This document shows positions 43,118 to 64,000 of a DNA stretch of 64,000 bases, in pieces. Position numbers and translations under genes: made by a program. Source of the DNA: Thiorhodovibrio winogradskyi (GTDB lineage: Bacteria > Pseudomonadota > Gammaproteobacteria > Chromatiales > Chromatiaceae); assembly GCF_036208045.1 (NCBI RefSeq), contig NZ_CP121472.1, positions 4,537,531 through 4,601,530 of the forward strand, given 5' to 3'. Numbering within the stretch: position 1 is the first letter of the stretch; every line of letters begins with the position of its first letter. The notes beneath the pieces are model-generated. The model ran no database searches, was not told the DNA's origin, and saw only the letters and a list, made by a program, of their open reading frames with translations.

Positions 43118-43163
43118 AGCGTTCCAGTTCATTGCGCGACTGACGCGCGCACGACAAACCTGG

Positions 43164-43194: not shown

Positions 43195-43350
43195 GCAGCA
43201 GCAGTCGCCTTTGGCCTTATCTATGATCAAGGCCCAAGGAACAGATTGCATCGACCAAGCCCATCAGCATGCCGTGTTTCAGACAGCCTTAGTCATAACA
43301 TGCTCTCGGGATTGATCATCCGACTCGGTCGAACGCAAAGATCGAAACCG

Positions 43351-45381: not shown

Positions 45382-45479
45382 GTCTGTCCTGACGATTGTA
45401 GATTCATCCAGTTACCCTGAACCACTTAGGACATTGCGCTTGCAATGACCCAGCACGACCAAGCACGCACACTTCAGGA

Positions 45480-46415: not shown

Positions 46416-46733
46416 TGTGACTTTCCTGTTTCAATCTTTACCAAGATACTGACACACACCGCCGCGGAAGACAGTGAAAGCGCGCGGAGCGCGCATTCGC
46501 CGTCATAAGGGCTTCCAACCTTGATGGTCACGCGCCAGGATGGCCTCTTGAGGCAAGCGGACAACCCACGTTGGCCTATCGTTTTCCCAGGACTTGAAGG
46601 AACACAACAACATCCATCCACCACCCTGCCGCAACCGGCACCTCAATAATGTCGAACCATCCATTTTATCAGCGAAAAAGTTATCAGCGAAAAAAATATT
46701 AGCGAAAAAGGCGCGCAAAGTGAATAGCGCGCA
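46416..46733. other. Intergenic region with decayed repeat and 15-bp triplication
   Basis: Separates the two DUF4214 paralogues. It contains a sequence (46506-46560, around GGCTTCCAACC ... CGCGCCAGGATGGCC) related to 48862-48914 and, more distantly, to the internal part of the 133-bp element. The triplication at 46666-46710 is listed separately. No gene is supported. Confidence 0.45.
46666..46710. repeat. Three tandem 15-bp units
   Basis: Units TTATCAGCGAAAAAG, TTATCAGCGAAAAAA and ATATTAGCGAAAAAG are contiguous. They lie about 25 bp before (on the minus strand, after) the downstream end of the 46734 gene. Confidence 0.85.
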
Positions 46734-47681: not shown

Positions 47682-48361
47682 TCTCCGGTATCAAGCATTG
47701 CCTGTAAGCTGAAGACTTCACCTCAGTATACTCGCGGCAAGTTGATCGAACCCAAGTCTCCCTCCCGTTTCGGCATTGCCGCATGCAACAAAGACAGGTT
47801 ATCCCCGTCGGCCGGTGATGTTGTTCCTCGCTGCACTCAATGCCCATGGACCGATGATGGAAGGATGTCGCGACTATTACTGGGATGCTAGCTGACAAAG
47901 CAAGCAGCTGGCTCCTGTTGTCGAGAGGATCCGCGGCGGCAACTGTTGCTCCATCAGGCTCCGCCACGAGGGTACTCATCATCGGTTTGCAACCCCTCCC
48001 GGCGCTAAGATTTTCTAAACCCTGGTCCACCTGTCTCGGCCTGACAAGTCATGCGTCAGGGCTGCCCGCCCCTCTGTCCATTGACTTGACGAAGTGCTAA
48101 ACTGTGTCCTCGAGACGAGAGCCTTGCAGGGGCGAGCAGTTCCTACGATCCGATTCCCATCATCAACCCCGTCGGCACCAATGCCGGTCTGGGCGGGAAT
48201 AAAGCCCGTCACCAAGGGCGCATTCATCAGGGGGATCTAGAGCCATAACCCAGATCCCCCCTTGACCTGCGCTCGCCTTGACTTGCGCTAGGTGAGCCCT
48301 TTGTCACGAGGTTCACCTCTGATATTTAATCTTTTTCCCGTTTTTTATTTGGATAATACCG
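47682..48361. other. 680-bp region without a convincing gene
   Basis: Short open frames occur on both strands (for example 47644-48030 minus, 47885-48100 plus, 48015-48227 minus), but none has a recognisable domain or ribosome site. Part of 48120-48240 reads like protein-coding debris in one + frame (YDPIPIINPVGTNAGLGG). I cannot assign it. Confidence 0.4.
48301..48328 (+). promoter_or_regulatory. Candidate sigma-70 promoter with palindrome between -35 and -10
   Basis: TTGTCA, a 16-bp spacer, then TATTTA, 33 bp before the DUF6447 gene. The spacer contains a perfect inverted repeat GAGGT-TC-ACCTC (48308-48319), placed as a repressor operator would be. The promoter match is moderate. Confidence 0.35.
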
Positions 48362-48580
48362 ATGACTGAATCAACCGAGGCCAAGCTAACCATTGATGGC
48401 AAGGAGTACCGCGTTGCGGATTTGCCGGATGCGGCCAAGACACAAGTGCAAAATCTTCGGGTTTCGGAATTGGAGCTGCAACGGCTTCAAGCCCAGATTG
48501 GGATGATTCAGACTGCCCGTAATGTATACTTGAAGGCACTCAAAGCCGCATTACCTGTGGAGCCTCCACTTAAACATTGA
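48362..48580 (+). CDS. DUF6447-like small protein
   Basis: A 72-residue acidic protein. KLTIDGKEYRVADLPDAAKTQ followed by a helical LQRLQAQIGMIQTARNVYLKAL matches, from memory, the DUF6447 family of small proteins of unknown function. No membrane or export signal. Weak ribosome site. It stands alone between repeat-rich non-coding stretches. Confidence 0.6.
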   Translation: MTESTEAKLTIDGKEYRVADLPDAAKTQVQNLRVSELELQRLQAQIGMIQTARNVYLKALKAALPVEPPLKH

Positions 48581-49201
48581 CAAAACGGCCACATTTAGTT
48601 ATCACTCAATGGATTTCCGCGCCATGAAGTCAGCCGATTGGTAGGCACTTCCGAGAGCTTTGGTGCCCACCCAGGTGACTGAAGGGCCTGCCTATTCGTC
48701 GGCCTGTCGATGCATGGTGAGACGGTCGATGCATGGTGAGATTAAGTGATCGGACAAAACCACCGACCCAGTTCCATGGCAAATTCTAGCCTCCATCACG
48801 ACGAACAACATGAACGGCCTTGATCATAAACCGGGCCAAAGGCAAGCGCACCAAGCGTCGTCAAGGCTTCCAGCCCTGATTCTGCCAGGCCAAGATGGCC
48901 TGTCTCCGCAAGCGGCACGATCAGGTGGCTCACCTTGATAATAGGTCGCTATAGGTGATCCTGGAGAAAGAAGTCTGATCCATGGGAGGGGTTCGACAAA
49001 ACCCACATCACCAAGGACGTCCAGCCCATCTGACCGACTCCACCTGACCGCGGGTTTTCATCTTCTAGCCTCCGAGGTATGCGCCGCGGGGGCTTTTGTG
49101 TTGTGCGAACCGACGAAAACCAAGCAGGCTAGGAACCTCGGTTAGCGGGCGGTTGCAATGCGAAATGATTAACAGAGATTTGGGAGTCTTTTTCTTCAAC
49201 G
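48581..49201. other. Repeat-bearing region upstream of the PKS/AONS operon
   Basis: No gene is supported before 49202. It holds a 17-bp tandem pair (48706-48741), a decayed element copy around 48862-48914, and a possible weak hairpin AGCCTCCG/CGGGGGCT followed by TTTT near 49068-49098. The operon promoter should be here, but I could not pin it down. Confidence 0.45.
48706..48741. repeat. Two 17-bp direct repeats, 19-bp period
   Basis: GTCGATGCATGGTGAGA occurs at 48706-48722 and again at 48725-48741. Confidence 0.9.
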
Positions 49202-49363
49202 ATGACAATCATCGACATTGGTTGGCATGTAACTGGCGGGGTCATCGCTGCCGCCAAGTTTCCGAGTATTTGTATCCAGGGGCGGCGATGGAACTGGACA
49301 ATCAGTGAACTGAACGGGATCCTCTTGGAATACCTGTTATCCGCGCCTCCGGTGGAAGAATGA
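49202..49363 (+). CDS. Short ORF (53 codons) coupled to the oxoamine synthase gene
   Basis: ATG 49202 opens a frame that ends TGA 49361-49363, overlapping the ATG of the next gene by ATGA. The peptide starts MTIIDIGWHVTGGVIAAK and ends LLEYLLSAPPVEE. No family is recognised, and no ribosome site lies at normal spacing (GGGAG is 15 nt away). The overlap is the typical arrangement of translational coupling, but chance cannot be excluded for an ORF this short. Confidence 0.35.
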   Translation: MTIIDIGWHVTGGVIAAAKFPSICIQGRRWNWTISELNGILLEYLLSAPPVEE

Positions 49364-50634
49364 ATATCGAGCAAAAACGGGAATTGTCGCGGGCGAAGCG
49401 GTCATCTTTACGCGAGGGTGAAGCACGGCAAGGGTTTTGTCTGCGGCAGGATTTGCTCAAGCATCGCAAGGCATTAGCAGATTTGCAGACGAGCGTCGGT
49501 CATTCGATTTTTTTCCAGGCCTCCGAAGGAACTAACACCAATCACACGGTCATCGACGGTCGCTCTTTCATTAATTTCTCCAGTTACAATTACTTAGGAC
49601 TGTGCAGCCACCCCGGGGTCATGGCTGCGGCACAACAGGCCATCGACCAATACGGGACTTCGGTCTCCGCCTCGCGCCTGGCTTCGGGCGAGCGTCCCCT
49701 ACATCGCGCGCTTGAAGGTGAAATCGCGCGCATCCTGGGCACCGAGGATGCCTTGGTATTTGTCGGCGGATTTGGCACAAACGAGACCCTGATCGGCCAT
49801 TTGTGCGCCAGGGGGGATCTGATCCTGCACGATTCCCTCATTCATGCGAGTGTCCTGGCAGGGGCACGACATTCAGGGGCAACCACGCGCCCTTTCCCTC
49901 ACAATCAAGTCGCCGCCTTGGAAACAATCCTCTCGCGGGAGCGTCATCGCTATCGCCAGGTCTTAGTGGTGATCGAAGGGGTTTACAGCATGGATGGCGA
50001 TCTTCCGGACCTGCCCGCGTATGTCCGCTTGAGAGAGCGCTACGGCTGCCTTTTAATGGTGGATGAGGCCCATTCTTTTGGCGTGATTGGCGCGAACGGA
50101 CGGGGTATCAGCGAGCACTTTGGAGTTGCGGCGACTGATGTCGATCTTTGGATGGGAACCTTAAGCAAGTCGCTTGCCAGTTGTGGTGGTTATGCGGCCG
50201 GTCCGGCTAACCTGATGGAGTATCTTCGCTTTAGCGCGCCTGGATTCGTCTACAGTGTTGGCATCAGTCCGCCAAATGCCGCTGCCGCGCTTGCCGCCCT
50301 TGGAGTAATGCGCGATGAGCCGTGGCGGATCGCACGCTTGCACGAGCGTTCACGGCAGTTTCTCGTGCAAGCGCGACTGGCCGGCCTGGAGACGGGTTCA
50401 AGCGGCGATTCGCCAATTATCCCGGTGATAACGGGTGATAATCAGCGCGCGGTGCGGCTGTATCGTGTGCTGTACGACGATGGGATCTATGCGCTGCCGA
50501 TCTTTTATCCCGTGGTGCCAAAAGGCATGTCCCGAGTGCGTTTTTTTCTTTCCTGTCTTCATGGTGAAGACGACATCGAACGAGCCGTCTCAACGGCGCG
50601 CAAAGCGCTCGATCTCGCCGCCGTTCATTTCTAG
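49360..50634 (+). CDS. Alpha-oxoamine synthase (SPT/BioF/KBL family)
   Basis: A 424-residue PLP enzyme (fold type I, class II aminotransferase) that condenses an acyl thioester with an amino acid, losing CO2 to give an alpha-amino ketone. Visible: NFSSYNYLGLCSHPGV, GTSVSASRLASGERPLH, HDSLIHAS (H157 expected to stack on PLP), VDEAHSFGVIGANGRG and the Schiff-base lysine K270 in TLSKSLASCGG. Length matches SPT/AONS. The next gene is a PKS without thioesterase, so its likely acyl donor is the PKS-bound chain, as for fungal Fum8. The amino-acid substrate cannot be told; an orthodox SPT acting on acyl-CoA is possible. GGTGGAAGA precedes ATG 49360. Confidence 0.92.
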   Translation: MNIEQKRELSRAKRSSLREGEARQGFCLRQDLLKHRKALADLQTSVGHSIFFQASEGTNTNHTVIDGRSFINFSSYNYLGLCSHPGVMAAAQQAIDQYGTSVSASRLASGERPLHRALEGEIARILGTEDALVFVGGFGTNETLIGHLCARGDLILHDSLIHASVLAGARHSGATTRPFPHNQVAALETILSRERHRYRQVLVVIEGVYSMDGDLPDLPAYVRLRERYGCLLMVDEAHSFGVIGANGRGISEHFGVAATDVDLWMGTLSKSLASCGGYAAGPANLMEYLRFSAPGFVYSVGISPPNAAAALAALGVMRDEPWRIARLHERSRQFLVQARLAGLETGSSGDSPIIPVITGDNQRAVRLYRVLYDDGIYALPIFYPVVPKGMSRVRFFLSCLHGEDDIERAVSTARKALDLAAVHF

Positions 50635-50696
50635 AGCGACTTTTACACGACAACTCAAAGAAAGCACTTAAAGCCGTCGCACAGGAGTTAATAAAC

Positions 50697-53600
50697 TTGT
50701 CTCAGTCCAGAATGCCCATCGCAATTGTTGGTGCCGCGTGTCGCTTACCCGGCGGGATAGACACACTGGAGAAATTCTGGTTGGCCCTGCGCGAAGGACG
50801 AGATCTGGTCACCGAGATCCCGCGGGATCGCTGGAGCCGAGAGGCTTTTTTCCACCCGCGCAAAGCCACCCGCGGAAAATCCTATACCTGGAGTGCTGGC
50901 GTGCTTCCACAGGTCGACCATTTCGATGCGGCATTTTTTGGCATTTCTCCACGAAAAGCGCGGCAAATGGATCCCCAACAGCGCATTTTGCTAGAGCTGG
51001 CCTGGGAGGCCCTGGAAGACGGCGGCCAGATTCCAGAAAAACTCAAGGAATCAGCTTGTGGTGTTTACCTAGGACTAGCCAGCACTGATTACCGTGAGCA
51101 TTTCATAGAAGACCCCAGTTCCGGAGATGGCCACTTCATGACCGGCGCCACGCTGAGCATCGCGGCCAATCGCCTGTCTTTTTTCTTCGACCTACGCGGC
51201 CCAAGCTTGGCGATCGATACCGCTTGTTCCTCGTCCCTAGTAGCATTCGACATGGCGTGTAAGGCTCTTTGGAACGGCGAGATCGCCACCGCCCTGACTG
51301 GCGGGATCAACCTATTGCTGAGCCCCTTCCCCTTCGTCGGTTTCTCGCAGGCGAACATGCTGTCCCAGACGGGGCGTTGTCGAGCCTTCGACGCCTCGGC
51401 GGACGGCTATGTCCGAGCCGAGGGGGGCGCGCTGCTGTTCTTGAAACCCTTGGAAGCCGCCTTGCGCGACGCTGACCCCATTCACGCGCTGGTCGTCGCC
51501 TCCGGGGCCAACTGCGATGGACACAGTTCCTCGCTCGCTGTCCCGAGTGTAGACGGGCAGGCATCATTGTTGCGTGAGGTCTATGACAATGCGCGCATCG
51601 ATCCCAATGACCTGGCCTACATTGAGGCCCACGGCACAGGAACAGTCGTTGGGGATCCGGTGGAATGCAGCGCCATTGGGCAGGTGCTCGGACAACGGCG
51701 ACCTGCCCAACATCCTCTGCCGCTTGGATCGGTAAAAACCAATCTTGGTCACCTCGAACCCGCCTCCGGCGTGGTCGGTTTGCTAAAAGCCATTTTGGCA
51801 CTCAAAAATCGTGCTATTCCGCCTTTGTTGCATCTGCGCGAGCCAAATCCGGCCATCGATTTCGGTGCCTTGAATTTGAAATTGGTCACGGATCTCACCC
51901 CCTTGGCCGATACGGGCAAACCCCTATACATGGGGGTCAACTCCTTCGGTTTCGGCGGAGCGAACGCGCATGTGGTGCTAGCCAGCGCGGTGACGGAAAT
52001 GGCCGTGGAGCCCACCCCCGCCAAGTCTTCGGCCCCCCTCTGTCTGCTATTGTCAGCGCGCAGTGAGTCCGCCCTCGGTGCACTGGCGGCGACTTACACG
52101 CAATGCCTGGAACGGGAAGAGGACGCCCTCCAAGATCTGCTTCATCACGCCGCCCTGAGACGCCAACATCATGAATATCGCCTCGCCGTCCTCGGCTCCA
52201 GCCGCGATGAGCTGCTGCGCCGCCTTGGTGCCTTGCTGACCACGGGAACGGCACCAGGATCAGCAAGAAAACGGGTGATCAACACAGACCGGGTCGGAAA
52301 TGTTTTCGTGTTTTCGGGCAATGGCTCTCAGTGGCAGGGAATGGGGTTGCAATTGCTGAGGACAGAACCAGCTTTCCGCCGTGCCGTCGAGCAGGTCGAT
52401 GCGCTCTTAAAGAAGCGTTCCGGCACATCCATCGTCAAATCACTTCGGCTTTCGCCAAGGAGAAGTCGGCTTGCCTTGACGGAAGTGGCCCAGCCGGCAT
52501 TGTTTGCGATTCAGGTCGGGCTTGTCGAATTGCTCCGAACCCGCGGTATTACCGCCGACTACTGCGTTGGACACAGTGTCGGCGAGGTCGCGGCGGCCTG
52601 GGCAACCGGTGCCTTATCCCTGGAGCAGGCGGTAGCCGTGATCGATATCCGCGGCACGGCCCAGGCACGCACTCATGGAAGCGGGCGCATGGCGGCATTG
52701 GGTCTCGGACCGGACCAGGCTCGACGGCTGCTCGATCAACTGGAAGTATCGCTTGAGATCGCCGGCAAAAACTCTCCTCGTTCGGTGACACTTTCCGGCG
52801 ATGCGCATGAGCTTGAGCAGGTGGAACGGGTTGCCACCGAGCAAAATCTGTTCTTCCGCCGGCTGGATCTGGAGTACGCCTTTCATAGCCGCAAGATGGA
52901 GGCAATCCGGGATATAATACACGAAGGGCTGAGCCGACTAAGCCCAAATCCGGGAGTCTTGGGCTTTTATTCAACCGTCACCGCTGGCAAATTGCCGGGC
53001 ACGGCACTCGATGCCGACTACTGGTGGCGAAATATTCGTCAACCCGTTCTTTTCGCGGATGCACTTGCGGCCGTGACCGCCGATGGGGGGCGACTGTTCT
53101 TTGAAATTGGGCCTCACCCCGTGTTGCGCTCCTACGTGAAAGAATGCCTTACAGACCTAGCGACCAGCACACGAATTATCACCACCTTGAGGCGGGACAT
53201 CGAGGACCAAGCCACTTTAATGAATGAGGCCCTGGCCTTGGCCTATGCCCACGGCGGCCGCTTGGACCTGAAAGCGCTGTTCCCGCTCCCCACGCGCCCC
53301 CGACGCCTGCCGCCCTATCCCTGGCAGCATGAAGCATATTGGTATGCAAAGACCGGAGAAAACTCCGGCATCCTTGCCCCTCAGCAGGTGCATCCTCTGC
53401 TTGGCCACAGGGTCATTAAGGCCGAGGCGACATGGGAAAGCCAGGTCGATTCACTGACCCACCCGTATCTCGCCGATCATGTCGTGGATGGGGCTCATAT
53501 TTTCCCAGCGGCTGGATTCGTCGAGATGGCCTTGGCCGCTTCCCGCGCTTGGCATGGCGGAATCACGCACGACCTCGAAGACCTGGAAATACACGCGCCT

Positions 53601-56600
53601 TTGTTGCTGGATAAAGAAGCAACCAGGGCGTTACGGTTCGTGCTTTCCCCGGACGATGGCCGTTTCAGTATTCGCAGCCGTCCACGTTTGTCCAATGAGA
53701 CTTGGGTGGAGCATGTCACCGGCCGCTTGCGGGGGGCGGTCTTGCCCCGCCCCCGGATCTTCTTGGATTTCGACCGCGAACGCGGCCATTACGCAACCTG
53801 CGTCGACGCAGACACCCATTATCGCGCAGCGGCGCGCGGCGGCTTGGAGTATGGTCCGACCTTTCGTGTCATCGACAAGGTTTTTCTCGCCGAAGATGGC
53901 GGGTTAGCGCGCATCCAGGTGCCAAAACTGAATCAGACCGCAACTCGGGATTATCTGCTGTATCCGCCCTTGCTTGATGCCGCCTTTCAAATGCTACTGA
54001 ATCTTGGTGACCCCGATGACCTCGCGGAGCCCAGGTTGCGTGTGCCTTTTCGGGTGGGCCGCCTGCGTTGGCTCGGCGCGGGAGAAGTCGCCTTAAGCAA
54101 GACAGTGCTGAAAAGGATTCACCCCTTCTCTCAAGTCGCGGATGTCGTGCTGGCCGATGCCGAGGGGCACGGCGTCGCGGTGCTCGAGGATTGCCGTTTT
54201 CGCGACCTGCCAGGCGCGGCCGTGACAAGAATGCCCGGTCTATTCGCGCCCTTTGCCCGGTTGCAGCCGCTGCTGACCAATGCGCCCGTCTCCTCGCCTA
54301 TCGATTTGGATGCGCTGTCACAGGCCGGCCGGACCTGGCTGGCCTCGGCTGCTATCGACATGAGACGGGATCTGCATCAGCGCAAAATCCGGCCACTGCT
54401 CGCTGAGCTCGTGACGGCTTTTGCCTTGGAAGCGGTGCGGCCGCTGCTCACCAGCGCGCGCTCTGATCGCGATGATGCTCGACCCGGCCTCTATCCACAG
54501 CCACTTGATCCACGTCAGCGGCCCTTGTTCGACTGGTTACTCGAGCAACTCAACAGGAGGGGCCTGGCAAGCCAGCACCACGGGGTCTGGTCCCTGGCTC
54601 CGCAATCAGAGACTGTTGACGCGGCGCGACGCTGGCAGTCGATGCTGCATCAGTACCCGGACTATCTGTCCGAACTGCTGATGGTGGGCCGCTGCGGACT
54701 GGCATTGGAAGCCTTGCTGTGCGATGCCGATGCGCGCATGGAGGAGGTGCCATTCCCCTCCAGTAAAAGCGGCACCCGCGACCACCTTTTCGATGCCTCG
54801 CCCAGTTACGAGATCGGCAACAAACTGGTGGAACAACTGGTGACCAGGATAGTGCGCCAATGGCCTCCACGGCAACGCCTCAAAGTCCTGCTGTTGAGCG
54901 CGGGGGAGCTTGGGCTAGGTCGGCGGCTGTCGCGCGTCCTGCCCGCAGACCGGACCGATTTGCATATCGAGATGTTGGATGCCGCGGCTGGCGTTCGCGC
55001 GCATGCCGAGTTCTCCACGCAGTCGTGGATACAAGTGCGTGCCCCGGAGCCGGAGTCGTCATCGCCCGGAGCGCACACGCCGACCGCGTTCCCTTACGAT
55101 CTGATCATCGCCCCCCATGTGGTGCATCGTGCCGACGCGCCAGAAGACCGCTTGAAGACGCTCTCACGCTCCCTGGCCGCGGATGGAATCATACTGCTGC
55201 TCGAACGCGCCCCCGAGCCCTTCAGTTGCCTCGCCGATGGGGTAAAACCTGGGTGGTGGATAAACTCCCGGCCCGATGGGCGTCCAAGACCCAGACTGAG
55301 ACACGCCATTGAATGGCCTGCACTGCTTGACGCGGGCGGTTTTAACACGCCCGTCCTCCTGAGCGAGGAAGACCCCGCGGAGGCGGAGATCTTTGTTCTT
55401 CTCGCACGCAAAGCAAAGCTTGCCGTGCCGTCACCACCTCGCCCCCAGGGCAATAGGGTCAAGGGCACCAATTGGCTGTTATTAACGGACACCAACGGAA
55501 GTTCCGCCGATTTGGGCAAGGCCGTCGCGCGTCTGCTGCGCACCGCTGGCGCGCGAGCGATTATCCTGGAGTTGGGCGGACCGCGCCGGCGGACGGGTCC
55601 GGATGATTTTCGCGCCGACGCCGTACAAGAGGATGATTGGAACTGGGTGCTGATGGAACTGCGCCGGGACACTGTGGACTCTCTGGGGATCATTCACCTG
55701 TTGGGATGGAATGCGAAGGGCCAGGTCGATGCAGAGGATGCGCTAACCCTTCAGGATCAGCGTTGTCTAACGACGATCACACTGTTAAGAGCCGCTGCAA
55801 GCGAGGAAACTCCCGCCTCGCTCAGTCTGTGGCTGGTTGCCTCGGGCGGCGCTCCGGTGAGTTCCCCGCTGCCAACCAGTGACTGGGCTCGGTGTCCGGA
55901 TCAAGCGCCACTTTGGGGGCTCGGCCGGGTGCTGCGCAACGAACATCCGGAATTGAACTGCCGACTCCTGGACCTGCATCCGGGGGCAGGCATGGAAGAT
56001 ACCGCCGGGCGCTTGTTCGCCGAACTGGCGGAGAAAGACCCCGCGCCCGAGGTTGTGTCAACCGCTCAAGCGCGCTACCTGGTCTCCGTGCGCGCGCTCG
56101 AGGCGTCTGACCTGAACCCACCCGCTAGCAGCAAGGCTGATTCCAAACCCGCGCGGGTGAAGCTCGGCTTTTCCAGCCCAGGCACCTTGCGCAACCTGCA
56201 GTGGGAGACTGTGCCGCGGGTTGAACCATCCGCCGGAGAGGTGCAAATTCAGGTGTGTGCCGCCGGCGTCAATTTCCGCGACCTCATGTACACCATGGGT
56301 CTGTTGCCAGATGAAGCGCTTGAGTCTGGCTACGCCGGCGCATCCTTGGGGTTGGAGGCCGCGGGAAATATCCTTGCCGTGGGACCGGGAGTGGAGCGTT
56401 TCGCTGTCGGTGATCCCGTTCTTTGTTACGCGCCGGCGAGCTTCGGCTCCATGATCACCACCTCCACGGCATCCGTCGCGCACAAACCGCAACACTGGAG
56501 TTACGCGCAGGCCGCGACCGTCCCCGCCGTCTTCTTCACGGTTCATTACGCCCTGATTCATCTAGCCCGTGTGCAACAAGGTGAACGCGTATTGATCCAC

Positions 56601-58295
56601 GGTGCGGCAGGTGGTGTCGGCATCGCCGCCATCCAATACGCGCGTCACTTGGGTGCCGAGATTTTCGCCACCGCCGGAACGCAAGAGAAACGCGATTTCC
56701 TGCACCTGCTGGGTGTCGATCATGTGATGGATTCCCGATCCCTCGCCTTCGCCGACGAGATCATGCGCATCACCATCGGCAAGGGGGTGGATGTCGTACT
56801 GAATTCAATCGCCGGTGAAGCTGTGCGAAGAAATCTTGCGGTGCTCGCACCCTTCGGGCGCTTTCTCGAGCTCGGTAAACGCGACTTTTACGAAAACAGT
56901 CGCATCGGTCTGCGTCCGTTCCGTAACAATATCTCTTTTTTCGGCATCGATGCCGATCAGGTCATGCGGCATCAGCCGGAACTGGCCGAGCGGCTGTTTC
57001 AGGAGATGATGCAGTTATTCGCGCAGGGGGTTCTGCAACCTCTGCCATATCGGCAATTCCCGAGCGCGGATGTCGCGACCGCATTCCAAACCATGCAGCA
57101 GTCGCGCCATATAGGCAAACTGGTGGTGTCCATGGCGGAAACACCAACTCCGCGCCTTGCGGCAAACAACGCCAGTCCTAGATTGAAACTCGCCCCGGAT
57201 GCGACCTATCTCGTAACCGGCGGTTTGACTGGTTTCGGCTTGGCGACGGCACTCTGGCTTGTGAAGAAAGGTGCCCGCCAGTTGGTCCTGATGGGGCGGC
57301 GCGGTGCAGCGACACCAGGCGCGGCCGCAGCGGTCGCGGATCTCCAGGCGGCGGGGGCGGCGGTTCAAATTTTTCCGGGTGATGTCTCCGATCCCCAGCA
57401 ATGCGAGCAACTCATGGCTAACTTGCAGGCTGGAGCTTATCCCTTGCGGGGGATTATTCATGCCGCCATGGTTCTGGACGATGCCATCCTGGTAGGCACG
57501 GACCAAGCTCGCTTGCGCCGGGTACTGGCCCCCAAGCTGCTTGGCGCGCGCAACCTTCATCGCCTGACCGCGACACTCCCTCTGGACTTCTTTGTGCTTT
57601 ATTCATCGCTCACCACGCTTATTGGCAATCCAGGGCAAGCAAGCTATGTGGCTGCGAACAGCTACCTGGAGGCTTTGGCCCTTCAGCGACGCGAACAGGG
57701 TCTGCCGGCTCTTTATGTGGCTTGGGGAGCAATGGATGATGTCGGTTATCTCACCAGAAACCCAGCCATCAAGGACTCCCTCACAAAACGCATGGGAGCG
57801 GCTGGCATCAAGGCGGCGCTTGCATTGAATATTCTCGAACGACTGATGACGCGTGATCAGGTCGGGCTTGCCGTTGGCAATGTCAACTGGAACCTTCTGC
57901 GGCGATCATTGCCGATGGTGTTGCTGCCGGAAGAGGAAACAGTCGAACCCGCGCAGGCGTCCGAGGACGATGCGCTCGACCCTCGCGAATCCCTGCGGGA
58001 ACTCAATCCAAAAGAGCGCCGAGCACGTGTCTCCAGCCTGTTGATAGCCGAACTATCGAAAATACTTCAGTTGCCGCCAGAACGGATCGATGTCCAAGCA
58101 TCTGTCTTTGATCTGGGTCTCGATTCACTGATGGGAGCGGAATTGGCGCTGGCCGTGGAACGTCGGTTTGGAGTCAGGGTTCCAATCATGACCATCAGCC
58201 AGGGTATCTCGCTCAAGAAGCTTATTGATCTTATCGTTGCAGACTATGCGGAGACCAGCTCGTCCAATCCAAAAAAGACACGCCACGCCCCCTGA
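50697..58295 (+). CDS. Highly reducing type I polyketide synthase (KS-AT-DH-psiMT-ER-KR-ACP)
   Basis: A 2532-residue single-module PKS. KS: C177 (DTACSSS), H312 (EAHGTGT), H352 (GHLEPASG). AT: S627 in GHSVGEV and an AFHS motif that suggests malonyl. DH: H928 (DHVVDGAHIFP) and D1094 (LLDAAFQ). Residues about 1230-1560 look like a C-methyltransferase, but its SAM motif is degenerate (LLSAGELGLG). ER about 1820-2135 (GAAGGVGIAAIQ). KR from about 2169 (LVTGGLTGFGLA) with S2304, Y2317 and a VLDD motif. ACP: S2477 (LGLDSLMGAEL). There is no thioesterase. TTG start has AGGAG 8 nt upstream; ATG 50712 is the alternative. With full reduction and possible iterative use it should make a saturated long chain, presumably handed to the oxoamine synthase. 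The architecture equals fungal HR-PKS. Confidence 0.94.
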   Translation: MSQSRMPIAIVGAACRLPGGIDTLEKFWLALREGRDLVTEIPRDRWSREAFFHPRKATRGKSYTWSAGVLPQVDHFDAAFFGISPRKARQMDPQQRILLELAWEALEDGGQIPEKLKESACGVYLGLASTDYREHFIEDPSSGDGHFMTGATLSIAANRLSFFFDLRGPSLAIDTACSSSLVAFDMACKALWNGEIATALTGGINLLLSPFPFVGFSQANMLSQTGRCRAFDASADGYVRAEGGALLFLKPLEAALRDADPIHALVVASGANCDGHSSSLAVPSVDGQASLLREVYDNARIDPNDLAYIEAHGTGTVVGDPVECSAIGQVLGQRRPAQHPLPLGSVKTNLGHLEPASGVVGLLKAILALKNRAIPPLLHLREPNPAIDFGALNLKLVTDLTPLADTGKPLYMGVNSFGFGGANAHVVLASAVTEMAVEPTPAKSSAPLCLLLSARSESALGALAATYTQCLEREEDALQDLLHHAALRRQHHEYRLAVLGSSRDELLRRLGALLTTGTAPGSARKRVINTDRVGNVFVFSGNGSQWQGMGLQLLRTEPAFRRAVEQVDALLKKRSGTSIVKSLRLSPRRSRLALTEVAQPALFAIQVGLVELLRTRGITADYCVGHSVGEVAAAWATGALSLEQAVAVIDIRGTAQARTHGSGRMAALGLGPDQARRLLDQLEVSLEIAGKNSPRSVTLSGDAHELEQVERVATEQNLFFRRLDLEYAFHSRKMEAIRDIIHEGLSRLSPNPGVLGFYSTVTAGKLPGTALDADYWWRNIRQPVLFADALAAVTADGGRLFFEIGPHPVLRSYVKECLTDLATSTRIITTLRRDIEDQATLMNEALALAYAHGGRLDLKALFPLPTRPRRLPPYPWQHEAYWYAKTGENSGILAPQQVHPLLGHRVIKAEATWESQVDSLTHPYLADHVVDGAHIFPAAGFVEMALAASRAWHGGITHDLEDLEIHAPLLLDKEATRALRFVLSPDDGRFSIRSRPRLSNETWVEHVTGRLRGAVLPRPRIFLDFDRERGHYATCVDADTHYRAAARGGLEYGPTFRVIDKVFLAEDGGLARIQVPKLNQTATRDYLLYPPLLDAAFQMLLNLGDPDDLAEPRLRVPFRVGRLRWLGAGEVALSKTVLKRIHPFSQVADVVLADAEGHGVAVLEDCRFRDLPGAAVTRMPGLFAPFARLQPLLTNAPVSSPIDLDALSQAGRTWLASAAIDMRRDLHQRKIRPLLAELVTAFALEAVRPLLTSARSDRDDARPGLYPQPLDPRQRPLFDWLLEQLNRRGLASQHHGVWSLAPQSETVDAARRWQSMLHQYPDYLSELLMVGRCGLALEALLCDADARMEEVPFPSSKSGTRDHLFDASPSYEIGNKLVEQLVTRIVRQWPPRQRLKVLLLSAGELGLGRRLSRVLPADRTDLHIEMLDAAAGVRAHAEFSTQSWIQVRAPEPESSSPGAHTPTAFPYDLIIAPHVVHRADAPEDRLKTLSRSLAADGIILLLERAPEPFSCLADGVKPGWWINSRPDGRPRPRLRHAIEWPALLDAGGFNTPVLLSEEDPAEAEIFVLLARKAKLAVPSPPRPQGNRVKGTNWLLLTDTNGSSADLGKAVARLLRTAGARAIILELGGPRRRTGPDDFRADAVQEDDWNWVLMELRRDTVDSLGIIHLLGWNAKGQVDAEDALTLQDQRCLTTITLLRAAASEETPASLSLWLVASGGAPVSSPLPTSDWARCPDQAPLWGLGRVLRNEHPELNCRLLDLHPGAGMEDTAGRLFAELAEKDPAPEVVSTAQARYLVSVRALEASDLNPPASSKADSKPARVKLGFSSPGTLRNLQWETVPRVEPSAGEVQIQVCAAGVNFRDLMYTMGLLPDEALESGYAGASLGLEAAGNILAVGPGVERFAVGDPVLCYAPASFGSMITTSTASVAHKPQHWSYAQAATVPAVFFTVHYALIHLARVQQGERVLIHGAAGGVGIAAIQYARHLGAEIFATAGTQEKRDFLHLLGVDHVMDSRSLAFADEIMRITIGKGVDVVLNSIAGEAVRRNLAVLAPFGRFLELGKRDFYENSRIGLRPFRNNISFFGIDADQVMRHQPELAERLFQEMMQLFAQGVLQPLPYRQFPSADVATAFQTMQQSRHIGKLVVSMAETPTPRLAANNASPRLKLAPDATYLVTGGLTGFGLATALWLVKKGARQLVLMGRRGAATPGAAAAVADLQAAGAAVQIFPGDVSDPQQCEQLMANLQAGAYPLRGIIHAAMVLDDAILVGTDQARLRRVLAPKLLGARNLHRLTATLPLDFFVLYSSLTTLIGNPGQASYVAANSYLEALALQRREQGLPALYVAWGAMDDVGYLTRNPAIKDSLTKRMGAAGIKAALALNILERLMTRDQVGLAVGNVNWNLLRRSLPMVLLPEEETVEPAQASEDDALDPRESLRELNPKERRARVSSLLIAELSKILQLPPERIDVQASVFDLGLDSLMGAELALAVERRFGVRVPIMTISQGISLKKLIDLIVADYAETSSSNPKKTRHAP

Positions 58296-58373
58296 ACAGT
58301 TGGAAATAGCGCAACAACCACGGATGTCAGGTTGTTTTTCAACCCAAGGCCCCCGCGCAAGGACAATCAATCG

Positions 58374-59333
58374 ATGACCGACAATCGCCGAGCCTCAAGT
58401 TTGTTGCGCTTCCTTTTCCTCCTTCTTGTCCTGCTGACCAGTTCAATCTGCCAAACAGTCTCTGCGGATAGCAAGATTGGGGCCGTTGGGGAGCTGCAAC
58501 CGGTCAGCGGGATTCTGGATCTTATCGGCACGCCAGGTGCTCGCATCAGCGAAATCCTCGTCAAACAAGGCCTGCATGTCAACAAAGGCGATGTTCTCAT
58601 CGTCTTCAGCAACTTTATGACACTTCAAGCACAACTTGATCTTGCTCGGCTCGAACTCGAAGAGCAACTGAAAACCAAGGGCACCAAGCTGGCATTACAG
58701 CGCCATCTCCTTGAAAACGCGCAACTTGCCCTGAAGCGGTCGGAACGCAAGCTAGCGGATCAGCAGCAGCTAGGGCCTGTCGCAAGCTCCAAACGTGAGC
58801 TCACCGACCTCGAAGACGCCGCTATCGACGCGAAACGACGACTCGAAGAGGAAACCCTGAAGCAGCGTCAGTTGGAGATTCAGCTTGAGCTCGAGCAGCT
58901 GAAAGCAAATGCCAGGCTGGAATTGGCGCGCTCCCAATTTGCCGACGCAATGATCAAAGCACCGATATCTGGCACCGTTCTCGAAGTGCTCAAAGAGGTC
59001 GGAGAAAGTTTGGGTGTGGGCGAGATTGGGAGTTCGACGCTCGATATCGCCGCACTCCGCCTTGCGGACCTCTCACAAATGTATGTCGTCAGCGAAATTT
59101 ACGAGGGCGATCTGTTGCGGATCAAGGTAGGCATGAAGGCGACGGTCTCGAGCCCCGCCCTTGATGCCGACATTCCCGGAGTCATCGAGCGCATTAGCCG
59201 ACAGGTCGAGACAAAAAGCCGGCTGGCCAAGGTGTGGGTGCTATTGGACAAAGCGGAACTGGCCTCGCGCTTTATCGGAATGGAAGTTCAAGTGGATATC
59301 CATGCACAGCCGGCCCCAGAAAACCCACGCTAA
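58374..59333 (+). CDS. Membrane-fusion protein, DevB/HlyD-like
   Basis: A 319-residue periplasmic adaptor. N-terminal hydrophobic segment (RFLFLLLVLLTSSICQTVSA), lipoyl/barrel-sandwich part (PGARISEILVKQGLHVNKGDVLIVF), a long alpha-helical hairpin of about 110 residues (LARLELEEQLKTKG ... KANARLELARSQFADA), then API-SGTVLEVLKEVGE and the beta-barrel (MYVVSEIYEGDLLRIKVGM). It matches the DevB family, which works with DevC and DevA and an outer-membrane TolC partner to export heterocyst glycolipid in cyanobacteria. ATG 58374 is 78 bp after the PKS stop. An upstream in-frame TTG at 58332 would add 14 residues. Confidence 0.88.
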   Translation: MTDNRRASSLLRFLFLLLVLLTSSICQTVSADSKIGAVGELQPVSGILDLIGTPGARISEILVKQGLHVNKGDVLIVFSNFMTLQAQLDLARLELEEQLKTKGTKLALQRHLLENAQLALKRSERKLADQQQLGPVASSKRELTDLEDAAIDAKRRLEEETLKQRQLEIQLELEQLKANARLELARSQFADAMIKAPISGTVLEVLKEVGESLGVGEIGSSTLDIAALRLADLSQMYVVSEIYEGDLLRIKVGMKATVSSPALDADIPGVIERISRQVETKSRLAKVWVLLDKAELASRFIGMEVQVDIHAQPAPENPR

Positions 59334-59397
59334 CGCTCTTTTACTTGACAGCCCAGAGTCCGGGGATAACGGCAATCGCGCAAACCAGGCTTTTGAC

Positions 59398-60540
59398 ATG
59401 TCCCTGTTGAGCGCGGCTTTCACTTTTAGCTGGCGCAATCTCACCGCCAACAAGGCACGCTCGGCCGCCGCGTCCGCTGGGATTGCCTTTGCCCTTTTTC
59501 TGGTCTTCTTGCAGTGGGGGTTTCTCGATGCGGCCAAGAAACAGGTGACAACAGTTTTCGATTTCTTTGACTATGACATTGCCATCCTAAAGAATACCTA
59601 TCAATTCCTTTTCACCACCGAGCCTTTCGACCGTGTGCGTCTTATCCAGGCCAAGGCACTGCCAGAAGTTGAGAAAATCTTCGCCGTGAATTTTTCCCTC
59701 GCCACATGGGAAGACGACATCTCTGGCTTACGCTCCAGCTTAATGCTCTTTGGGGTCGATCCTGATCCAGACTTCGTTGCCGACCGCCACATCGGGCGCG
59801 GCTTGCAACATCTCCGGGGAAAACGCGACGTCATCGTCGACGCCTATTCTCATCCTGATTTTGGCCCTTTGGCGAAGGGCACCAGGGCCTTTATCAACAA
59901 CCAGGAAGTACGAATCGCCGGACATTTCTTGTTGGGGATGTTTTTCTATACCGAGGGATCCGCGCTGGTCGACAATAACGGATTCTCCTTGCTAACGGGT
60001 CGCTCTTCGCGCCAGACCAGCTTCGGCTTCATCCAGTTGAACTCTGGCGCCAGTCCCGACCAGACTCGCGCACGCCTGCAACATCTGTTACCTGATGATG
60101 TAATAGCCATTACCAAAACGGACTTGATCGCCAAGGAACAGGAGTATTTCATCGAAGTAAAGCCACTGGGATTCATATTTTCCGCGGGTGTGGTGATTTC
60201 TTTTCTCACGGCCTTCGTTATCCTGTTCCAAGTGGTCGCGACCGATATCAACACGCGGGTGCGGGAATATGCCACACTCAAGGCCATGGGCTTTGGCTTT
60301 GGTTTTATCTATGGCACAGCGCTGCTCCAGGTTTTTCTCATTGCCGCGGTCGCCTTGCTGGCTGCAACCTTGCAGGCCGCACTGCTCTTCCATTACGTGG
60401 AGCAGCAGATTCATCTGCCCTTGGCAATGACTGGCGAGCTGCTGGGTATTGTCTCGGGAGTCAGCCTAGCCATGGTCGTTATCACTGGATTCGCGTCACT
60501 GTTCGACCTGGCGAAGGCCAATCCGGCGGATCTCTATTGA
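59398..60540 (+). CDS. ABC exporter permease, FtsX/DevC-like (1)
   Basis: A 380-residue permease. N-terminal helix (SAAASAGIAFALFLVFLQWGFLDAA) then a ~220-residue periplasmic domain, then three helices (LGFIFSAGVVISFLTAFVILF, ALLQVFLIAAVALLAATLQAALL, LLGIVSGVSLAMVVITGFASL) ending with the coupling motif DLAKANPADLY. This is the FtsX/MacB-permease topology seen in DevC, with the REYATLKAMGF signature near the cytoplasmic loop. ATG 59398 is preferred, giving a compact N terminus. It forms a pair with the overlapping next gene; DevBCA systems normally have one permease. Confidence 0.85.
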   Translation: MSLLSAAFTFSWRNLTANKARSAAASAGIAFALFLVFLQWGFLDAAKKQVTTVFDFFDYDIAILKNTYQFLFTTEPFDRVRLIQAKALPEVEKIFAVNFSLATWEDDISGLRSSLMLFGVDPDPDFVADRHIGRGLQHLRGKRDVIVDAYSHPDFGPLAKGTRAFINNQEVRIAGHFLLGMFFYTEGSALVDNNGFSLLTGRSSRQTSFGFIQLNSGASPDQTRARLQHLLPDDVIAITKTDLIAKEQEYFIEVKPLGFIFSAGVVISFLTAFVILFQVVATDINTRVREYATLKAMGFGFGFIYGTALLQVFLIAAVALLAATLQAALLFHYVEQQIHLPLAMTGELLGIVSGVSLAMVVITGFASLFDLAKANPADLY

Positions 60541-61652
60541 TGGGCACCGGACTGGCAATCATTTGGCATGCCAAAAGCCGGTTGCTGTTTTCGGTTTCAG
60601 GTATCGCCATGGCGGTCGTCATCATTTTTGTTGAACAAGGCTTCTTGTACGGTGTGCTGGATTCCCAGGCCCGGATTACCCGGCACCTGAATGGTGAACT
60701 CGTCGTGATACATGAGAGCCGCACGCATCTCAATAAATGGAACACCTTCAAAAAGGCCCATATTCACCGACTCGCGGCGGTCGCTGGCGTCGCCACTGTG
60801 ATTCCTATCTACAAGACCAAGGTCCGTCTTCGCAATCCCGATACCGAACGCGAAAAAATGATTCTAGCCTATGGGTTTCCTCCCTCGACAACGCCCTTCC
60901 ATGGCCTGATTGACAATGTTGCGCGCTCCACCCTCAAGCGCCGAGGATCCGTCCTTTTTGACCAACTCTCGCGCAACATTTACGGAACTTTGACCCTTGG
61001 TTCCGACCTTGAAATCAATGGTGAAAACCATCGGCTGGAAGGATTCTTCCGCATGGGGCCAACCATTGTTTACGATGGCGCCCTGCTCATGGGTGATGGA
61101 ACACTATTGCCACATCACCCAGGCATCGAACCGATCATGGCCGTGGTCCAGTTGGAGCAAAATGCCGATCTCGCGGCAATACGTCTCACGCTCGAACGGG
61201 CAGCGCCGCAACTCACCGTCATGACCCCAGGCGAACTTGAAGGCAAGGAAAAAGCCTTCGTTGAACAATCGACTCCAATCGGCATTCTGTTTGGCATTGG
61301 CATGGTCGCTGGCCTGGTCATCGGCGTCGTTGTTTGCTATCAGGTGTTGTTCAATGACATCAATAATATGCTGCCGCAATACGCGACACTCAAGGCAATG
61401 GGTTATTCCAATGTCTTCCTCGCCGCTGTCGTTGTCGAACAAGCCCTCTTCATGAGCGTTCTGGGTTTCATCCTGGCCTTACCAATCGTTTGGTTGTTTT
61501 TCGATTACTTGGCCGAGCGAACAGCCATGTTAATGTTTATCGACTGGCAACGCATCCTCCGGGTCTTCGTGCTAACTCTCGGTATCGGTCTGACCGCGGC
61601 CGTGCTCGCGGTGCGTGTGGCGCTGCGCGCGGATCCCGCCAGACTGTTTTGA
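60540..61652 (+). CDS. ABC exporter permease, FtsX/DevC-like (2)
   Basis: A 370-residue paralogue of the preceding permease. The same layout is visible: N-terminal helix (LFSVSGIAMAVVIIFVEQGFLYG), a large periplasmic part, LPQYATLKAMGYSN, helices (ILFGIGMVAGLVIGVVVCY, AAVVVEQALFMSVLGFILALPIVWLF, VFVLTLGIGLTAAVLAVRVAL) and the C-terminal RADPARLF coupling motif. ATG 60540 overlaps the first permease stop by 1 nt (TGATG), so translation is coupled. Two different permeases would form a heterodimeric transporter. Confidence 0.86.
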   Translation: MGTGLAIIWHAKSRLLFSVSGIAMAVVIIFVEQGFLYGVLDSQARITRHLNGELVVIHESRTHLNKWNTFKKAHIHRLAAVAGVATVIPIYKTKVRLRNPDTEREKMILAYGFPPSTTPFHGLIDNVARSTLKRRGSVLFDQLSRNIYGTLTLGSDLEINGENHRLEGFFRMGPTIVYDGALLMGDGTLLPHHPGIEPIMAVVQLEQNADLAAIRLTLERAAPQLTVMTPGELEGKEKAFVEQSTPIGILFGIGMVAGLVIGVVVCYQVLFNDINNMLPQYATLKAMGYSNVFLAAVVVEQALFMSVLGFILALPIVWLFFDYLAERTAMLMFIDWQRILRVFVLTLGIGLTAAVLAVRVALRADPARLF

Positions 61653-61668
61653 ATCGCTCCGGAGCAAT

Positions 61669-62379
61669 ATGAGCAAGACACCTTCGAACAGCCTTTGGGT
61701 CAAGGCCTTCGGGGTGGATTATGCCTATGGCGCGGGGCGCACGGAAAAGCAGGTTTTATTTCATTGCCATCTTAGCCTTATCCGGGGGCAATTTGTCATT
61801 CTGACCGGTCCCTCCGGATCGGGGAAAACCACACTGCTAACACTCATTGGCGCACTCAGGTCACTGCAGTCCGGTTCTATTGAACTGGGCGGTCGACAAT
61901 TGCTTGGCATGCAACCGCGGGAAATGAATTTTGTCCGTCGCGACATCGGCTTTATTTTTCAGGATCACAATCTGTTTCGCGCCCTGACAGCAGAGCAGAC
62001 ATTGCGCTTGGCCATGCGTCTTTTTCCCCACCGGTATTCACGACAGGATCTGCGTGAAGCACCATCCCGCATTTTAGACGCCTTGGGCATGGCGGAACAC
62101 ATGAAGGCACGCCCTGATGAAATCTCTACAGGTCAAAAGCAGCGCGTAGCCATTGCACGTGCCCTGATCAATCGTCCTAACACCATTTTGGCTGATGAGC
62201 CAACGGCATCACTCGACAGAGACACGGCACAGATCGTGATTGATCTTCTGCGGGAAAGGGCAAAAAAAGAGAACGCCCTGGTGCTGATTGTCAGCCACGA
62301 TCAACGGCTGTTCACAACTGCTGATCGTGTAATAAGAATGGTGGATGGAAGCATCCTGGCTCAGGACAGCGATACATGA
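61669..62379 (+). CDS. ABC exporter ATPase, DevA/LolD-like
   Basis: A 236-residue nucleotide-binding protein. Walker A is GPSGSGKTT, the Q-loop lies in FIFQDHNLF, Walker B and following residues are ILADEPTASLD, and the H-loop is VSHD. The signature reads ISTGQKQR where LSGGQ is usual, so the first Gly is Thr. GGAG is 5 nt before the ATG. It follows the second permease by 16 bp and completes a DevBCCA-type export set. Confidence 0.9.
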   Translation: MSKTPSNSLWVKAFGVDYAYGAGRTEKQVLFHCHLSLIRGQFVILTGPSGSGKTTLLTLIGALRSLQSGSIELGGRQLLGMQPREMNFVRRDIGFIFQDHNLFRALTAEQTLRLAMRLFPHRYSRQDLREAPSRILDALGMAEHMKARPDEISTGQKQRVAIARALINRPNTILADEPTASLDRDTAQIVIDLLRERAKKENALVLIVSHDQRLFTTADRVIRMVDGSILAQDSDT

Positions 62380-62474
62380 GTCCTTGGTCTATCGCTTAAT
62401 CATGTTTATTATCCACACTTTGCCCCCTACTGTGGTCATTTACCAATCATCTTCCCACCGAGTTCTCCAAGATC

Positions 62475-63194
62475 ATGATTTTAAAGAACGGCAAGGACCG
62501 AACATACCACTTTTTCCGTTGGGTTTTTGACAGCCGACGCCGAACGGACGCGCTCTACCATGCCGTTTATCTGCCAGTGCGGTTGCTATTCGGCCTAATA
62601 GTTAGAGGCGCCGAAAACCTTCCATCGACAGGCCCGGCAATCTTTGCTTTCAATCATGGATCGCATTATGACGGTTTCTTCATGATGTTTGCCTTATACC
62701 GGTTTCGACCATATCCACGCGCTCTACCGGTTTATTGGCATGGCATGTTGAGCATGCCGGTGATCAGCAGTTTTCTGCGCGCCCACGGTGGATTTTCAAT
62801 TTCGCACGACGCATCACAAGCGCAAACGCGAACAGGGGAAGTCATTGCCATGCGCAACGCCCTGGAGAGTGGCATCCCGATCTTAATGGCGCCTGAGGGG
62901 AAACGAAATAGTCGGCTGGGAAGGTTTCAACAAGGGGCGGCGATGCTTTCACTTAACACCGGCTGTCCGATCGTTCCCTGCTCATTGCGCGGTGTTAACA
63001 AGCTTTATGATCAACTGCCATTCCCAAATCGCATCTGCGGACGGGTTGAAGTCTGTTTTCATCCGCCTATCATCCCCAGCGGACCCGTAACCGAACAGCC
63101 TGACATGCTCACCGTGAAATCCCTGACCCAATCGCTTTGGAAAGTGATCGCTTCGGGAATAGATTATCCCGTGGCGACTGAACTGATGGATTAA
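62475..63194 (+). CDS. PlsC-type 1-acyl-glycerol-3-phosphate-like acyltransferase
   Basis: A 239-residue acyltransferase of the LPLAT family. Catalytic motif I is NHGSHYD (H61, D66, HX4D) and motif III is PEGKRNSR (E141). The segment LPVYWHGMLSMPVISSFLRAHGG is also typical. No multi-pass membrane region; short hydrophobic N-terminal part (LYHAVYLPVRLLFGLIV). Substrate is unknown. In context it might O- or N-acylate the amino-alcohol lipid, but conventional phospholipid acylation cannot be excluded. ATG 62475, 95 bp after the ATPase gene. Confidence 0.82.
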   Translation: MILKNGKDRTYHFFRWVFDSRRRTDALYHAVYLPVRLLFGLIVRGAENLPSTGPAIFAFNHGSHYDGFFMMFALYRFRPYPRALPVYWHGMLSMPVISSFLRAHGGFSISHDASQAQTRTGEVIAMRNALESGIPILMAPEGKRNSRLGRFQQGAAMLSLNTGCPIVPCSLRGVNKLYDQLPFPNRICGRVEVCFHPPIIPSGPVTEQPDMLTVKSLTQSLWKVIASGIDYPVATELMD

Positions 63195-63203
63195 ATCCTG
63201 GCT

Positions 63204-64000
63204 GTGACTGCCCCTCACGCATTCATCACTGGTGGCTCCAGTGGCATCGGACTTGCTGTCGCCAAGCGGTTGGCACTCAAAGGCTGGCGCTTATCCCTTC
63301 TGGCGAGGGATGAGCACAAGCTCGAGCAGGCAAAAAACGCCCTAGCACTCTTGCGATATCGCCGCGGGCAGTGCAGCTCAATTAGCGAGCAAATAGGCGC
63401 AGAGCCGTCGGTCCCAATTGATATATTAACACTCAGCGCCGACCTGACCGACCCCGCACAAACGGTCAATGCGGCGCGGCATGCTATTGCCACCATGGGT
63501 GCACCCCAACTACTGGTTAACTGTGCTGGGATGGCCCGTCCTGGTCATTTTATCGAAATGCCCCTCGACATCCATCGACGCACAATGGATGTTAACTACT
63601 TTGGCACACTCACAATGATTCGGGCGCTCGCACCCGCCATGATTGACATGGGTGGGGGAAAAATTGTTTTAATATCCTCAGGCGCCGGACTTGTTGGCAT
63701 TTTTGGGTACTCAGCCTACAGTCCAACAAAGTTCGCGGTACGCGGACTTGCGGAAGTGCTGCGCGCGGAACTCAAACCCTTGGGCATCAGGGTGTTTGTT
63801 GTCTATCCACCCGATACTGACACACCCCAACTCGCTGAGGAAAACAGGTACAAGCCCCCCGAGACGCGCGCCATCACCGGTTCGGCGACAACACGCAGTG
63901 CCGAGATGGTCGCTGCAGCCATCCTGTCAGGCATCAACAAAAACCGTTTCCTGATCGCCCCAGGATGGGAAATGGCGCTACTCGCCCGACTACACAGTCT
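63204..64000 (+). CDS. 3-ketodihydrosphingosine reductase-like SDR, 3' end beyond window
   Basis: The open frame starts GTG 63204, 9 nt after the acyltransferase stop and in the same frame, and runs to the window edge (265 codons). NAD(P) motif: TGGSSGIG. NCAG motif: LVNCAGMARPG. Active site: S159 (SSGAG), Y172 and K176 (YSPTK). After it come VRGLAEVLRAELKPLG and YPPDTDTPQLAEEN with KPPETR, very close to the motif that marks 3-ketodihydrosphingosine reductases (KDSR/TSC10) of eukaryotes. This would reduce the 3-keto group formed by the oxoamine synthase. The last part of the gene and any downstream genes are not seen. Confidence 0.88.
   Translation, partial: MTAPHAFITGGSSGIGLAVAKRLALKGWRLSLLARDEHKLEQAKNALALLRYRRGQCSSISEQIGAEPSVPIDILTLSADLTDPAQTVNAARHAIATMGAPQLLVNCAGMARPGHFIEMPLDIHRRTMDVNYFGTLTMIRALAPAMIDMGGGKIVLISSGAGLVGIFGYSAYSPTKFAVRGLAEVLRAELKPLGIRVFVVYPPDTDTPQLAEENRYKPPETRAITGSATTRSAEMVAAAILSGINKNRFLIAPGWEMALLARLHS

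Follow-up and report, generated by a model that had tools for sequence, protein, structure and literature searches.

A candidate island for an exported, probably phosphorylated, polyketide-synthase-made sphingolipid in Thiorhodovibrio winogradskyi

A set of eight genes that combines a polyketide synthase (PKS) and an alpha-oxoamine synthase (AOS) with a tripartite exporter is found in a 64,000-nucleotide stretch (the window; bases 4537531-4601530) of the genome of Thiorhodovibrio winogradskyi (G000), a purple sulfur bacterium of the family Chromatiaceae; this genome comprises 5,478,625 bases in a single contig. An earlier reading of this DNA from its letters alone (the sequence-only reading) had described adjacent same-strand genes for an AOS, a PKS, an exporter, a PlsC-like acyltransferase and a reductase resembling 3-ketodihydrosphingosine reductase (KDSR). 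This arrangement was borne out, as all eight genes are located on the + strand between 49360 and 64115, with intact frames and the expected Pfam domains in each. Their order is as follows.

49360..50634, + strand: AOS, SgaB-like, the proposed chain-releasing enzyme of the serine palmitoyltransferase (SPT) type (Pfam Aminotran_1_2; pyridoxal phosphate lysine, Lys270, present)
50697..58295, + strand: iterative, fully reducing type I PKS, KS-AT-DH-(degenerate MT)-ER-KR-ACP (Pfam, motifs)
58374..59333, + strand: DevB-like membrane fusion protein (Pfam HlyD; NCBIfam DevB 116.9 bits, cut-off 129)
59398..60540, + strand: DevC-like permease 1 (NCBIfam DevC 192 bits, cut-off 290.35)
60540..61652, + strand: DevC-like permease 2 (NCBIfam DevC 176 bits, same cut-off of 290.35)
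61669..62379, + strand: DevA-like ABC ATPase (Pfam ABC_tran; NCBIfam DevA 266.9 bits, cut-off 295.8; Walker A/B)
62475..63194, + strand: PlsC-like acyltransferase (Pfam Acyltransferase PF01553, 72.6 bits; HX4D and PEGKR kept)
63204..64115, + strand (the window ends at 64000): KDSR/TSC10-like short-chain reductase (SDR; TSC10 match, S-Y-K triad intact)

With the located start codons, neighbouring genes of this operon are separated by fewer than 100 bases or overlap, the latter by one base in the case of the two permease genes if permease 2 starts at ATG. The PKS gene begins with TTG at 50697 or with ATG at 50712, and an alternative TTG start is available to the DevB-like gene at 58332. The cluster has a G+C content of 57.4%, compared with 60.4% over window bases 1-49000. 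A scan for promoters and terminators returned signals near the shuffled expectation. The locus had initially been placed at 49202..64000. The genes are indeed there, but the relevant region runs past the window, as the reductase gene extends 115 bases beyond it to 64115 and is followed by genes for a kinase and a CarS-like enzyme (see below).

The description of the PKS as highly reducing and devoid of a thioesterase also holds, since its KS, AT, DH, ER, KR and ACP domains are accompanied by no Pfam thioesterase match. Of the catalytic motifs, the KS Cys-His-His residues, AT GHSVGE, DH HxxxGxxxxP, KR S-Y-N and the ACP serine are all present. The methyltransferase stretch is called degenerate because its match (23.3 bits) falls short of the Pfam cut-off of 30. 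As no thioesterase was matched in the PKS, the AOS would be the natural releasing enzyme. Among solved structures, its closest counterparts are the serine palmitoyltransferases 3a2b/8guh (238.6 bits), followed by an enzyme of the KBL/AONS type (232.7 bits). The motif YNYLG was dropped as a discriminating AOS feature, since it occurs in 66 of 92 rows of relatives and in near form in 8 more, with 18 rows giving no pattern match.

Among solved structures, the reductase is closest to TSC10 (3-ketodihydrosphingosine reductase, 8jat; 100.7 bits, next structure 81.1), which agrees with its initial designation as KDSR-like. The same is true of its counterpart in a related cluster of another genome, G332 (120.2 bits, next 87.8), to which it is 48.6% identical. 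In comparison, the identity to a reductase from a capsule locus is approximately 28%.

Downstream of the reductase, two further genes for putative lipid enzymes were found in a neighbouring stretch termed L003, whose coordinates plus 63000 give the following positions.

64272-65783, opposite strand to the operon: kinase of 503 aa (DAGK_cat 88.5 bits, SphK1 match)
65993-66559: CarS-like CDP-lipid synthase (32.6 bits, Pfam cut-off 22)

These are followed, in this order, by genes for a further protein, a flavin oxidoreductase and a GtrA-like protein. The closest solved structure of the kinase is human SphK1 (160 bits, residues 151-493), well ahead of acylglycerol kinase (75 bits) and the bacterial DgkB (42 bits). 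It is the single match of its kind within the T. winogradskyi genome at E 0.001. In a search of 398 Pseudomonadota genomes, this genome alone gave a hit with an E value of 1e-12 or better. The alignment to SphK1 reveals retained GGDG and DVDxESE segments, in which Asp81 and Asp178 presumably lie. Asp81 has been described as the general base (PMC9045371) and Asp178 as a ligand-anchoring residue (PMC8560647).

The kinase also bears on the amino acid that the AOS may use. Glycine, alanine or another amino acid would lead to a 1-deoxysphingoid or amino-ketone lipid that is decorated later. AOS families differ in this respect, the window AOS remains under all equivalog cut-offs, and the KBL/AONS-type structures are barely below SPT in the comparison above. 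However, a neighbouring SphK1-like kinase needs a primary C1 hydroxyl group, which is derived from serine and not from alanine or glycine. Moreover, PfSgaB, the AOS of Pseudomonas fluorescens MYb115, strongly prefers serine (PMC12134224), and we thus regard the use of another amino acid as unlikely.

The exporter genes had been assigned as DevB, DevC, DevC and DevA. This assignment holds in the sense of a DevBCA-like system, but not of DevBCA proper, as all four proteins score under the NCBIfam cut-offs of the heterocyst family (TIGR02971, TIGR01185, TIGR02982; scores given above). A classical DevBCA locus was ruled out on the basis of these scores together with a tree of DevC sequences. Pfam detects no outer membrane efflux protein (OEP, TolC-type) among the eight operon genes, to which this search was confined, while an OEP gene is part of the G332 cluster. 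In permease searches that spanned overlapping sets of 55, 398, 369, 48 and 210 genomes, an adjacent DevC pair beside an AOS was encountered in three genomes, i. e. in G000 itself, in G153 from the same family and in G332, which belongs to a different class within the phylum. The gene directly upstream of the exporter encodes a PKS in G000, an AOS in G153 and a PKS-AOS fusion in G332, so that DevB-DevC-DevC-DevA come after the AOS in both G153 and G332. The G153 contig begins approximately 200 bases before the AOS gene and ends within the DevA gene, which places the region of a possible PKS outside the contig. In G332, PKS and AOS form a single protein of 2,611 aa in one frame (L133:5831-13666, - strand) within a one-strand cluster encoding an inositol-phosphate synthase, the PKS-AOS fusion, DevB, DevC, DevC, DevA (with a cNMP domain), OEP, the TSC10-like reductase and a CdsA-like enzyme.

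In the DevC tree (31 rows), the first permeases of the three genomes form one clade and the second permeases another, each with a support of 100 in the Shimodaira-Hasegawa-like approximate likelihood ratio test (SH-aLRT), and both clades show identical branching of the three genomes. The KS tree differs, as the window KS joins that of G072, a genome of the same family, most closely and not that of G332. The KS of G072 is also the closest by identity (65%) in a set of 54 rows, and no exporter was matched in the 18 kb examined at its PKS locus. All three trees (AOS, KS and DevC) stem from quick searches, in which SH-aLRT is the sole measure of support. Repeat copies of one locus were left out beforehand, as were AOS rows below 200 bits or spanning fewer than 330 residues, KS rows below 150 bits or 350 residues and DevC rows with fewer than 250 aligned residues. 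At four other DevC loci (L122, L123, L124 and L127), 20-kb stretches yielded no AOS or KS matches of 40 bits; the remaining DevC hits were examined with approximately 1.5 kb per side only.

Since DevBCA paralogues include drug exporters (PMC8277102), the pump might also be of the MacB type and secrete a diffusible small amino-polyketide, for example a signal or an antibiotic, which would suit the strain-variable nature of the region (see below). Yet PlsC, the CarS-like and the SphK-like proteins are membrane-lipid enzymes, and a plain alkyl chain would be expected from a fully reducing PKS whose operon encodes no oxygenase. A small-molecule product is therefore very improbable.

The variability of the region emerged from a comparison with two congeners, each represented by one contig, for which 40 of 115-193 candidate DNA matches were scored per genome. 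Upstream matches end at approximately 36832 (query 33001-49400, E 1e-30) and downstream matches begin at approximately 70551 (query L003, E 0.001). Neither congener gave a hit for the proteins AOS (E 1e-100), DevC1 (E 0.001 and E 1e-25) or kinase (E 0.001). Because the flanking matches stop on both sides and these three proteins were not found, the PKS operon, the kinase gene and the CarS-like gene seem to share a single variable stretch of approximately 34 kb. The flanking matches sit at different places in the congeners, and a clean empty site was not seen with the two queries 33001-49400 and L003. The upstream part of the variable region (window 36928-47681) harbors several genes with a common C-terminal segment that is DUF4214-like by eye, with serralysin-like and nucleotidase-like proteins among those sharing it. 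At its right edge (L003:7551-8106), sequences of approximately 70-170 bases recur many times in both congeners.

PKS-AOS pairs are widespread. The best 80 of 388 AOS relatives were surveyed with a pattern scan; many of them lie on short contigs, so that all neighbor counts are lower bounds. KS and ER matches of at least 200 bits each were located beside the AOS at 42 of the 80 loci, and adjacent or fused PKS-AOS genes thus recur too widely for an ordinary BioF/Kbl gene next to a PKS by chance, which was ruled out. A fusion is also found on a Planktothrix plasmid, where one coding sequence of 7.6 kb comprises both (L152:8512-16110). DevB, DevC, PlsC, SphK-like or CarS-like neighbors were found at 0 of the 80 loci with the thresholds used and the DNA flanks available. 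In planctomycete loci (L008, L015, L016 and others), the AOS relatives are 50-55% identical, and the available flanks contain no KS match.

A gene resembling lipoteichoic acid (LTA) synthase or KpsS accompanies 26 of the 42 PKS-AOS loci vs 0 of the 38 AOS loci at which KS and ER were not detected. On a Pseudomonas plasmid, for example, the PKS and AOS genes are followed by one of the phytanoyl-CoA dioxygenase family and then by GNAT, LTA synthase and SDR genes, in this order, between two capsule genes; KdsA, KdsB and KpsF are encoded nearby. Both capsule genes match Pfam Capsule_synth, and we take them to be KpsC and KpsS. Sinorhizobium pSymB and Caballeronia p2 harbor PKS, AOS and SDR genes amid polysaccharide genes. 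The widespread PKS-AOS form hence often looks like a module of capsule loci, in which an LTA-synthase-like enzyme would explain a phosphoglycerol head group. Group 2 capsules are anchored by lysophosphatidylglycerol, for which phosphoglycerol-sphinganine could be a stand-in, and it may be that many capsules of the group 2 type are anchored by a phosphoglycerol sphingolipid from a PKS. Among the literature matches listed (for one query the best 10 of 106), no paper addressed by its title the lipid of the rkp/wcb capsule loci. The link suggests a testable answer to the question on which lipid these capsules sit.

Conceivably, the T. winogradskyi lipid might serve as such a polysaccharide anchor as well, with the exporter moving a glycolipid or a lipid-linked glycan. 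Besides the frequent LTA-synthase-like and KpsS-like neighbors, the GtrA-like protein within the same variable stretch would be consistent with this function. In the operon, however, no Kps-, Kdo- or LTA-synthase-like Pfam domain is present, a search of the flanks L003 and L004 returned no such match of at least 50 bits, and the reductase is TSC10-like and distant from that of the capsule locus. A capsule-anchor locus is disfavored by the Pfam content of the operon and by the flank searches, and such a function of the T. winogradskyi lipid is quite improbable.

Taken together, and as judged from its gene content, the region is likely an island for a sphingolipid that is made by a PKS, exported and probably phosphorylated. 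The iterative PKS would use its own ACP to build a saturated, presumably long acyl chain, which the AOS may then free in a decarboxylative condensation with an amino acid (L-serine being the most likely one) to give 3-ketosphinganine. This could be reduced to sphinganine by the TSC10-like enzyme. The steps up to this point are rather likely, and phosphorylation of sphinganine by the SphK1-like enzyme is still probable, with somewhat less confidence. Subsequently, the PlsC-like enzyme might acylate the molecule, and CTP-dependent activation of the phospholipid by the CarS-like enzyme could prepare it for a head group, before the DevBCA-type tripartite pump with its two different permeases would carry the product toward the outer membrane. 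PlsC enzymes acylate lysophosphatidate. Since sphinganine-1-phosphate resembles this substrate, the order kinase, PlsC and CarS is attractive. A CDP-activated lipid remains doubtful, and we know of no such step for a sphingoid lipid. It is likewise a tentative idea that the complete logic of glycerophospholipid assembly is applied here to a PKS-made sphingoid base, i. e. phosphorylation by SphK, acylation by PlsC, CDP activation by CarS, transfer of a head group and export through two permeases. In that case, the head group in G332 would be inositol phosphate, given its genes for inositol-phosphate synthase, a CdsA-like enzyme and a PI-phosphate-synthase-like protein. The last of these, an archaetidylinositol-/PI-phosphate-synthase-like gene under the NCBIfam cut-offs, lies near the G332 cluster on the other strand together with a GT4 glycosyltransferase gene (L119:7008-8791), which hints at a glycosylated inositol sphingolipid in this genome.

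The sequence-only reading had already proposed that a PKS-bound chain is released by the AOS, reduced at the 3-keto group and exported as a lipid. This is partly supported, and its core is well supported at the gene level due to the AOS-PKS fusions in two organisms, the TSC10-like reductase, the SphK-like gene and the exporter with an AOS in three genomes. The further steps of this reading, acylation by PlsC and delivery to the outer membrane, are putative. Several observations weigh against a sphingolipid island. No PlsC match was obtained in 40 kb around the G332 cluster. The SphK1-like gene was found neither in G153 nor in G332, the assembly of which is 71% complete, and in T. winogradskyi the kinase and CarS-like genes are outside the operon, the former on the opposite strand. 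The AOS places SPT ahead of the KBL/AONS-type structures by a mere 6 bits and stays under every listed NCBIfam AOS equivalog cut-off, with bioF on top (354 bits vs 426). In the AOS tree, the three exporter-linked loci form no supported clade and show long branches with low support, so that the partnership with the exporter may be old with exchange of the synthase or may have originated repeatedly. In addition, the SgaC-kind reductase of the Pseudomonas plasmid capsule locus has clavulanic acid dehydrogenase as its sole hit at E 1e-20, not TSC10, and the gene order is PKS then AOS in MYb115 and in the Sga-like loci examined, compared with AOS then PKS in the window. Finally, an AOS from a cyanobacterium failed to form 3-ketosphinganine despite its SPT-like sequence, and sphingolipids were absent from the host (PMC8895605).

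The system closest to the proposed pathway is PfSgaAB from P. fluorescens MYb115, reported in 2025 as the first PKS route to bacterial sphingolipids (PMC12134224). It consists of a PKS and an AOS that acts as an SPT on serine in vitro and leads, with the proposed KDSR SgaC, to sphinganines (C24, C26 and C28) and to sphingolipids with a phosphoglycerol head group; a total of 6,101 homologous clusters is given by the authors, and the main text mentions no exporter (PMC12134224). By description, PfSgaAB/SgaC and the window locus share a monomodular iterative PKS, an AOS, a KDSR-like SDR and, as found for the window, the lack of a thioesterase. The window locus differs by its exporter, PlsC, SphK1-like kinase, CarS-like enzyme and TSC10-like reductase, while the head group of the PfSgaAB product is phosphoglycerol. 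The heterocyst glycolipid exported by DevBCA-HgdD is of PKS origin. This exporter and that of the window both comprise a membrane fusion protein, a DevC-type permease and a DevA-type ATPase; the DevBCA operon, however, has one DevC (PMC8277102), whereas the window has two from co-inherited clades and all of its parts score under the NCBIfam cut-offs. An acyl-ACP donor for an AOS-family enzyme, as proposed here, also occurs in the SPT-AcpR-AasR route of Rhodobacterial Proteobacteria, although a specialized ACP is loaded there by an acyl-ACP synthetase (PMC9386255) and the chain would be built on the PKS in our case. Pfam detects no stand-alone ACP or acyl-ACP synthetase among the eight operon genes, to which the search was confined. 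The fungal fumonisin enzymes Fum1, Fum8 and Fum13 follow the same logic of PKS, AOS and KDSR. Fumonisin is an alanine-derived toxin, and to our knowledge its cluster contains neither an exporter of the DevBCA type nor a lipid kinase. FUM13 has been designated a homologue of KDSR (PMC12134224). With regard to the kinase, dhSphK1 (PG1348) from Porphyromonas gingivalis is likewise bacterial and similar to human SphK1; it acts on dihydrosphingosine beside the acyl-CoA-using SPT PG1780, with no PKS named in the excerpts (PMC9045371), whereas the T. winogradskyi kinase is encoded near a PKS-AOS pair.

The sequence-only reading had known of no described system with this exact gene set in a purple bacterium. 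This does not apply to the PKS-AOS route to sphinganine, which is already known (PMC12134224), but none of the matches listed from the open-licence PMC literature contains the whole set in one system. The locus represents a distinct branch of this route, whose exporter and head-group parts look new. In a family of photosynthetic sulfur bacteria, it provides a putative pump of its own, another strategy for the head group and a kinase resembling SphK1.

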